Virus record (IMG/VR): IMGVR_UViG_3300020419_000021
Coordinates: 1-49,510 of that record
Source: a virus
Length of the DNA: 49,510 bases
Direction: 5' to 3' (one strand)
Shown here: positions 17,522 through 49,423 of the stretch, piece by piece
Layout: the number at the start of each line of letters is the position of its first letter
Numbering within the stretch: the stretch's first letter is position 1
Notes under the pieces: model-generated
Database searches by the model: none
What the model saw: the letters and a program-made list of their open reading frames with translations, nothing else
Told to the model about the DNA's origin: nothing
Program-made: the position numbers and the translations under genes

Positions 17522-17550
17522 AATATATACTAAACTCTTGTTATTGTCAA
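17522..17550 (-). promoter_or_regulatory. Sigma70-like promoter P4
   Basis: On the minus strand TTGACA (17550-17545), 17-nt spacer, TATATT (17527-17522). It shares TTCCAGCATTGACAAT with promoter P9 of the clamp operon. A 6-bp hairpin (CTGGAA / TTCCAG, 17553-17569) lies 2 nt upstream of the -35 box. The rest of the gap to 17628 holds a weaker CGCC / GGCG hairpin followed by a T-run. Confidence 0.75.
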
Positions 17551-48593: not shown

Positions 48594-49259
48594 TTAAAAT
48601 GTTGAATCAGATTCAATAGCAACCCAATATTGAATTGGTTTGTTTGTATTGATAAAGTGAGATATTTTCTGTGAAGATATTGCCACATCATAATCTCCTG
48701 GAATCATCTTAAAGTTTTCCGTTTTGAAATATGCTGTGAATTCTTTGTCTGTTTCACCTACACTAATCTTATAATTATTAGAGCCTGGTGTTTTTTTGTC
48801 CATAGCAGTTAAACTAATCTCTTTACCATCACCTGTTACAGCAATGTCTGGTAAATTAAGAGTGGTTACACCTCTCATAAGTTTAGTAAACATATCACTC
48901 TTTAATTGAAAAGTAACATACTTATCTGGCATAGTAATTGCTTTTGACGGTGCAACTACAACCGATTTATCTGCAAAATAATATTTAATTTGTTGTCTTG
49001 AATTATCATCTGCTATTGTCAAATTCTGACCACCATTAAATTTAAGTGTCTTCTTGTCAAACAAGTCAACTGCTCTTAAAAATTCTGGTAAATCATAGAT
49101 AGCAAACTCTTGTTCAAACTTCTCTGATATTTCAGCCTCTGCTAAAATGTTTTTCAAAGTAGAGATAGTTTGAAGTTTGTTGCCTGGTTTCACCAGAATA
49201 TTCTGGTTGATATCTGAAAAGTTTTTCAGAATGGCAACTGTATCACTTGATAGGTTCAT
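48594..49259 (-). CDS. Sliding clamp (gp45-like)
   Basis: 221 aa, close to T4 gp45 (228). Typical features are MNLSSDTVAILKNFSDINQN, ILVKPGNKLQTIST, and a C-terminal strand with YWVAIESDSTF. GGAG lies about 8 nt upstream of the ATG. A 100-nt leader with a tRNA-like element (49287-49360) separates the start from promoter P9. It is the first protein of the replication operon. Confidence 0.92.
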   Translation of the reverse strand: MNLSSDTVAILKNFSDINQNILVKPGNKLQTISTLKNILAEAEISEKFEQEFAIYDLPEFLRAVDLFDKKTLKFNGGQNLTIADDNSRQQIKYYFADKSVVVAPSKAITMPDKYVTFQLKSDMFTKLMRGVTTLNLPDIAVTGDGKEISLTAMDKKTPGSNNYKISVGETDKEFTAYFKTENFKMIPGDYDVAISSQKISHFINTNKPIQYWVAIESDSTF

Positions 49260-49286
49260 TATATAATCTCCGTTTCATAATTTAAT

Positions 49287-49360
49287 TGGAGCGGATAAGA
49301 GGTACTGCCCCTCTTTCTGCAAGTTGGTAACCTGCCATAATACTTTTATACGATATCCGC
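49287..49360 (-). tRNA. tRNA-Gly-like element (anticodon ACC, encoded CCA)
   Basis: A cloverleaf can be folded on the minus strand. Acceptor GCGGATA / TATCCGC is 7 perfect pairs, followed by discriminator T and CCA. There is a short D-arm (GTA / TAT), an anticodon arm GCAGG / CTTGC with loop TTACCAA (anticodon ACC, 49328-49326), a 4-nt variable loop and a T-arm AGAGG / CCTCT. Gly identity features (G1-C72, C2-G71, G3-C70, U73, C35, C36) are present. The T-loop GGCAGTA and D-loop lack the usual TTCRA and GG, so it may be degenerate or specialised. Its 5' end coincides with the predicted start of P9. Confidence 0.7.
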
Positions 49361-49368
49361 ATTATCTT

Positions 49369-49397
49369 AATATACACTAAAGGCGTCCCATTGTCAA
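49369..49397 (-). promoter_or_regulatory. Sigma70-like promoter P9 (replication operon)
   Basis: On the minus strand TTGACA (49397-49392), 17-nt spacer, TATATT (49374-49369); start expected near 49362. The -35 box lies in the loop of a 9-bp hairpin, AGGCGTTCC / GGGACGCCT (49381-49410), with one T-G pair. The hairpin follows the hsp20 stop and may also act as a weak terminator. Confidence 0.75.
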
Positions 49398-49423
49398 TGC
49401 TGGAACGCCTATAGTTTTATTCT

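Follow-up and report, generated by a model that had tools for sequence, protein, structure and literature searches.

A probable glycine tRNA gene with a coupled A18/G55 elbow exchange upstream of the gp45 clamp gene in a T4-like pelagiphage

A 74-nt element at the predicted start of the DNA-replication transcript of a T4-like pelagiphage, directly upstream of its gp45 sliding clamp gene, forms a tRNA-Gly-like cloverleaf in which two bases of the elbow, 18 and 55, have been exchanged together (A18 and G55). The window examined here is the whole 49,510-nt stretch of IMG/VR record IMGVR_UViG_3300020419_000021. The element lies far beyond chance, and we lean, with moderate confidence based on sequence comparison, toward a genuine phage tRNA-Gly of an A18-G55 class, related to the tRNA-Gly of T4-like phages, that is released from its transcript and works as a tRNA. 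What the compared sequences show directly is the cloverleaf, the glycine identity features, the coupled exchange together with its repeated origin, and where the promoter is placed; the start site, processing, charging, participation in translation and the reason for the swap are what we infer from them.

The perfect 7-bp acceptor stem, the ACC anticodon arm and the encoded CCA reported in the first-pass annotation are all present (Table 1). The remaining bases are TC between the acceptor stem and the D arm, a single G between the D and anticodon arms, and AGAA in the variable region. The predicted fold is a cloverleaf of -23.5 kcal/mol, a stability reached by 1 of 200 shuffled sequences (z = -3.0), and it has the arrangement of Rfam family RF00005 (7-bp acceptor stem, D stem, 5-bp anticodon stem and 5-bp T stem). 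The loop consensus of that family (G18 G19 / T54 U55 C56 R57 A58) is replaced by A18 G19 and G54 G55 C56 A57 G58, and the element is therefore classed as a variant rather than a standard tRNA. Sister copies score 40 to 56 bits with RF00005 (gathering cut-off 29) and the copy in phage HTVC008M is called tRNA-Gly(acc) by ARAGORN; the window copy yielded no ARAGORN call, no Rfam report and, like the copy in phage Mosig, no RF00005 hit. A weak match to the Rfam mt-tmRNA model at the element was not significant. The 3' end of the tRNA lies 27 nt from the clamp gene, whose product shares 81% identity with its counterpart in Pelagibacter phage Mosig and 50% with that in HTVC008M (tblastn).

Table 1. 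Features of the tRNA-Gly element and its surroundings (window coordinates).
Feature	Position	Strand	Basis
-35 hexamer TTGACA	49392-49397	-	Promoter scan; conserved in relatives
-10 hexamer TATATT	49369-49374	-	Promoter scan; ends 8 nt before G1
tRNA-Gly(ACC) gene, A18/G55 elbow, 74 nt, encoded CCA (G1 at 49360, 3' A at 49287)	49287-49360	-	Sequence, fold, covariance model R1 (93 bits), covariation
Acceptor stem, 5' strand GCGGATA	49354-49360	-	Perfect pairing with 49291-49297; 99.8% of cells paired in 73 relatives
D arm GTAT-AAAAGTA-TTAT (A18 at 49344, G19 at 49343)	49337-49351	-	Sequence
Anticodon arm GCAGG-TTACCAA-CTTGC (anticodon ACC at 49328-49326)	49319-49335	-	Sequence
T arm AGAGG-GGCAGTA-CCTCT (G54 at 49309, G55 at 49308, C56 at 49307, G58 at 49305)	49298-49314	-	Sequence
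Acceptor stem, 3' strand TATCCGC	49291-49297	-	Perfect pairing with 49354-49360
Discriminator U73 and encoded CCA	49287-49290	-	Sequence; U73 common to 76/76 distinct copies listed
gp45 ribosome-binding site GGAG, between tRNA and ORF	49268-49271	-	Sequence
gp45 sliding clamp, 221 aa, downstream gene (ATG at 49259)	48594-49259	-	tblastn

Pattern scans of sequence collections located copies of the element in many contigs, with at least 120 matches in some scans; all counts refer to the matches listed, the patterns bias the samples, copies from a single lineage are not independent, and the contigs are fragments. In most IMG/VR gp45 relatives the element occupies this same position and is immediately preceded by a promoter, covariance-model hits of 80 to 100 bits occur in many phages, and two isolates, Mosig and HTVC008M, carry it. 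Among the 73 distinct relatives listed, 95.4% of pair cells hold standard pairs and 14 of 21 pairs show changes on both sides, so that base pairing is conserved and compensated across related phages. Double-changed cells numbered 270 compared with 62.6 in shuffles, and the covariation score was 0.542, whereas shuffles gave 0.167 and sliding the partners gave no more than 0.10 (73 copies listed). In a collection of 84,980 cellular species genomes, seven of eight pattern hits were not cloverleaves on inspection and the eighth was the same gp45 element in a MAG contig. A set of 398 genomes from a single phylum gave four pattern hits that seem fortuitous, being no more numerous than in the reversed-pattern control; two further pattern hits (L183 and L190) are chance. 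At E 1e-15, model R1 matched nothing else in 385 genomes from a single class. Its weak hits to tmRNA regions of phages were left aside; in two phage contigs (L139, 4234-4307, and L166) the element directly adjoins a permuted tmRNA gene.

Bacterial glycine identity features include G1:C72, C2:G71, U73 and C35 C36. All are invariant in the 73 of 73 aligned relatives listed, with position 34 occupied by U, A or G, and together with the covarying cloverleaf this bears out the earlier description of a tRNA-Gly-like RNA. Among 76 distinct copies listed, the anticodon is UCC in 55, ACC in 20 and GCC in one; CCA is encoded in 61, and U73 is kept in the 15 copies that do not encode it. A scan in which the anticodon was left free still returned glycine tRNAs in about 79 of the 87 matches listed. 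An ACC anticodon is unusual for tRNA-Gly in bacteria; it would directly read GGT, which makes up 68.5% of the glycine codons in the window. Canonical-elbow tRNA-Gly genes with ACC were also observed (L150, 9558-9632; L179, 6068-6142) in phages that additionally carry a swapped UCC copy.

The closest known counterpart considered, T4 tRNA-Gly(UCC) (NC_000866.4, 72291-72364), is likewise 74 nt long and shares the acceptor stem, positions 8-15, a 7-nt D-loop, a 4-nt variable region, U73 and an encoded CCA, with 49 of 74 positions identical overall. Where T4 has G18, U54 U55, A58 and UCC, the window copy has A18, G54 G55, G58 and ACC, the D-loop being AATGGTA in T4 and AAAAGTA in the window and the T-loop TTCGATT and GGCAGTA, respectively. 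The T4 gene also differs in location, lying in a tRNA cluster and not before gp45.

Few tRNA positions are as highly conserved as 18 and 55, whose bases touch in the folded molecule and carry the modifications Gm and psi. In the element G18 has become A and U55 has become G. The first-pass annotation had described a D-loop lacking GG; G18 is indeed replaced, but G19 is kept, as is its partner C56. Its view that both loop changes affect a single tertiary contact holds, since 18 and 55 change together, and by comparison of the sequences the elbow it termed degenerate is a compensated swap. To avoid selecting the answer, one scan was run with the T-loop fixed and the D-loop free, and another with U55 fixed. 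With the D-loop unconstrained, A18 G19 was present in 86 of 86 distinct G55 tRNAs among the matches listed, while the 97 distinct U55 tRNAs listed in the U55-selected set kept the GG motif. A wider census covered cloverleaves with either G or U at position 55; the 531 distinct ones listed comprised 107 A18/G55 and 424 U55 tRNAs. GG was assigned by rule to 362 of the U55 tRNAs; the other 62 were unclassed, having other D-loop lengths, and nearly all of those printed have GG. No mixed G18/G55 class appeared among the 531 cloverleaves listed. Furthermore, G55 and C56 are invariant in relatives, and in copies with the T-loop TGCAATA the U55 to G substitution is the main change. A near-identical pair of pelagiphage tRNA-Gly(GCC) genes, each 75 nt, differs at five positions, namely 18, 55 and three others in the T arm or acceptor stem. 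The literature searched yielded no usable report of an A18-G55 elbow, and novelty is claimed, as far as that search goes, only for natural tRNAs; earlier studies of suppressor tRNAs in which the D- and T-loops were randomised may bear on it.

The same elbow was found in tRNAs of other identities, namely fMet (4), Asp (2), Thr (2), Lys, Arg, Gln, Ile and His among the matches listed, several of them located in ordinary phage tRNA arrays. When both loops were masked, the A18/G55 bodies of Lys, Thr, Arg, Gln and most fMet tRNAs resembled the canonical tRNAs that share their identity more closely than they did the swapped tRNA-Gly, and the swap has, on this sequence evidence, arisen several times in phage tRNAs. 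A repeated and fully coupled natural exchange constitutes direct evolutionary evidence for the 18-55 tertiary contact. Because the exchange arose repeatedly, the reason for it is testable, and the A18/G55 tRNAs offer a ready natural variant set for asking what the modified elbow is for. In one pelagiphage operon a canonical tRNA-Thr lies a few bases past a swapped tRNA-Gly(GCC), so the swap is specific to the tRNA rather than genome-wide. The tRNA-His copies, which have the same loops and C73, are unannotated in the cultured Streptomyces phages Anedea and Riptide; Anedea (PP978811.1, 93873-93946 and 94167-94242) carries, besides the swapped tRNA-His, an annotated tRNA-His(gtg) that is labelled as rRNA.

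The top promoter-like site of the region consists of TTGACA and TATATT separated by 17 nt (11 of 12 matches). Because its -10 hexamer ends 8 nt before G1, transcription is predicted to start at about 49362-49360. Both this spacing and the relatives agree with the first-pass proposal of a promoter aimed at G1, with a predicted start within about two bases. Promoter-like sites were no more frequent across the region than in shuffles (5 versus 4.8), so the case for the promoter rests on the relatives. A promoter-like site is present within 75 nt upstream in 94 of 146 distinct copies listed compared with 0.9% of random 75-mers, and in 64 of the 146 distinct contexts listed its -10 hexamer ends 7 to 8 nt before G1. 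Copies with T-loops GGCAGTA or AGCGTTA often start at a promoter and TGC-type copies hardly ever do, an association that may be only phylogeny. In the window, an 8-bp hairpin (GGCGTTCC...GGGACGCC; 49382-49409, minus strand) with TTT after it has the -35 hexamer in its loop. Several relatives have other stem sequences there (GGCCGAGG, GGCCAGGA); since the stems differ while TTGAC stays in the loop, an overlapping terminator-promoter is likely. A second gp45-like promoter (CCAGCATTGACAATAA...TATATT), 79% identical over 47 nt to the gp45 promoter region, precedes another gene at 17550 on the minus strand.

If the element is a working tRNA-Gly, the phage promoter would start the transcript at, or about two bases from, G1, and little or no 5' trimming would then be needed. 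The tRNA would fold as the 5'-terminal part of the gp45 transcript and be cleaved off behind CCA, so that a short leader bearing the ribosome-binding site would remain. Host glycyl-tRNA synthetase would charge the released RNA through the kept identity bases, and it would serve as a glycine tRNA with ACC matching GGU. The swapped elbow would keep the L shape while removing the bases read by factors that recognize G18 or U55 (psi55 and Gm18 enzymes, elbow-reading nucleases), and the loss of these targets is probably the reason the swap was selected. The ribosome, RNase P, RNase Z and modification enzymes all recognize the tRNA elbow (PMC4810234). In three swapped tRNA-Gly-like copies (L447, 4168; L450; L456, 5557), all preceded by a promoter-like site, the anticodon loop is one nucleotide shorter than usual; a 6-nt loop is odd for a decoding tRNA and counts against this reading.

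It is rather unlikely, though to be taken seriously, that the RNA is instead a non-translational tRNA-Gly, charged but kept from elongation by its altered elbow and a T stem that binds EF-Tu weakly, and used in another Gly-tRNA step or as a decoy. Pair 51-63 of the T stem is U-A or A-U in 74 of 86 swapped tRNA-Gly and G-C or C-G in 88 of 97 canonical tRNA-Gly among the matches listed, from which weaker EF-Tu binding is predicted, as would fit such a role; this is the main ground for doubting a working tRNA-Gly. The shift in the glycine lineage parallels the non-proteinogenic tRNA-Gly of S. aureus, which have UU or CU at 18-19 and the weak EF-Tu pairs A49-U65 and A51-U63 (PMC4052509). Both weak pairs occur in the window stem (AGAGG/CCTCT) but not family-wide, 49-65 being mostly G-C and 51-63 mostly U-A in the 86 relatives listed. 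The staphylococcal analogy drawn in the first-pass annotation thus holds for the altered position 18 and the two weak pairs, but not for the remainder of the elbow, which has A18 G19 in place of UU/CU, keeps G19-C56 and compensates 18-55; no cell-wall role is indicated. The 15-48 pair is lost in most swapped Gly copies, in keeping with a non-translational role, and a canonical tRNA-Gly lies beside the swapped one in several phages, so the swapped tRNA may not be needed for decoding. Against this, the same swap affects fMet, Lys, Arg, Asp, Thr, His, Ile and Gln tRNAs, several in ordinary arrays, swapped UCC and GCC isoacceptors occur together, and no enzyme using Gly-tRNA was identified in the locus.

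Phage tRNAs are known to dodge anticodon nucleases through changes in the anticodon loop (PMC10264068). The element resembles such defence-evading tRNAs in being altered where host factors may read it, although the known cases concern the anticodon loop; a text search of PMC10264068 and PMC11555353 found no mention of the T-loop, D-loop or elbow. By analogy, the swap may represent an elbow version of anticodon-nuclease evasion. We propose only tentatively that phages have repeatedly evolved a second elbow, A18-G55, in about nine identities, giving tRNAs that fold and work while remaining unseen by host factors acting on the standard elbow, whether by recognizing or by modifying it (tRNA nucleases, psi55 and Gm18 enzymes), and that it is Gly-specific in pelagiphages. 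A glycine-only swap beside a canonical tRNA-Thr would be expected if tRNA-Gly were the target of some factor in SAR11 cells. Such a role would widen phage evasion of tRNA-directed defences from the anticodon loop to the elbow.

Where the downstream gene is clear among the distinct copies listed, it is gp45 in 31, a small conserved gene beginning MSIKLVLLKSNEE in 10 (copies that lack both promoter and CCA) and a peroxiredoxin-like gene in nine; others precede gp62, S21 (in HTVC008M) or unrelated genes, the names being taken from protein reading and annotation. Some copies are directly followed by a terminator, and in five contigs a UCC copy has another swapped tRNA, a tRNA-Gly(GCC), 7 nt downstream, with the peroxiredoxin-like gene next in line. 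As contexts vary among other genes, terminators, tandem arrangements and promoters, the RNA behaves like a tRNA gene whose location shifts and which frequently, though not in every case, is transcribed first. This variety also bears on whether the tRNA fold stays in the gp45 mRNA as a cis-acting leader that raises or gates clamp translation, which we judge improbable. The copy lies 9 to 39 nt before the ATG in gp45 contexts, a ribosome-binding site and ATG follow within 45 nt in 79 of 146 distinct contexts listed, and tRNAs grafted into mRNA leaders raised translation 2- to 6.3-fold in another system (PMC9142559), all of which would suit a leader. A leader would, however, give no reason to conserve C35, C36, U73 and CCA, and the whole leader (z = -0.9) has no unusual fold beyond the tRNA. 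Because copies precede other genes, sit in tandem or stand alone with terminators, a gp45-only leader is unlikely; the first-pass option of a leader controlling gp45 is not supported as the main role given close copies before peroxiredoxin-like, gp62, S21 and other genes, and the varied contexts rule out a gp45-specific riboswitch in that capacity. The yjdF riboswitch likewise places a tRNA-related fold ahead of an ORF, but it lacks a free 3' end, its ligands are azaaromatic compounds, and its T-loop base-pairs to the Shine-Dalgarno sequence (PMC9142559). None of these traits was seen in the sequence of the element, whose T-loop is unpaired in the predicted leader fold and whose contexts extend beyond one gene family. 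A decaying or pseudo tRNA, an option raised earlier and suggested by the off-consensus loops and by the failure of standard tools on the window copy, is scarcely credible and is ruled out by compensatory changes throughout the stems, invariant identity bases, the coupled change at 18 and 55 and wide conservation.

SAR11 bacteria are very abundant in the ocean, and tRNA genes of their phages escape standard annotation, HTVC008M being an example. This cultured pelagiphage is listed with no tRNA (PMC7029224). In phage Mosig, the hypothetical protein Mosig_000011 (MT647606.1, 7774-7869, equivalent to L083, 6135-6230) overlaps the tRNA and is probably not a gene.
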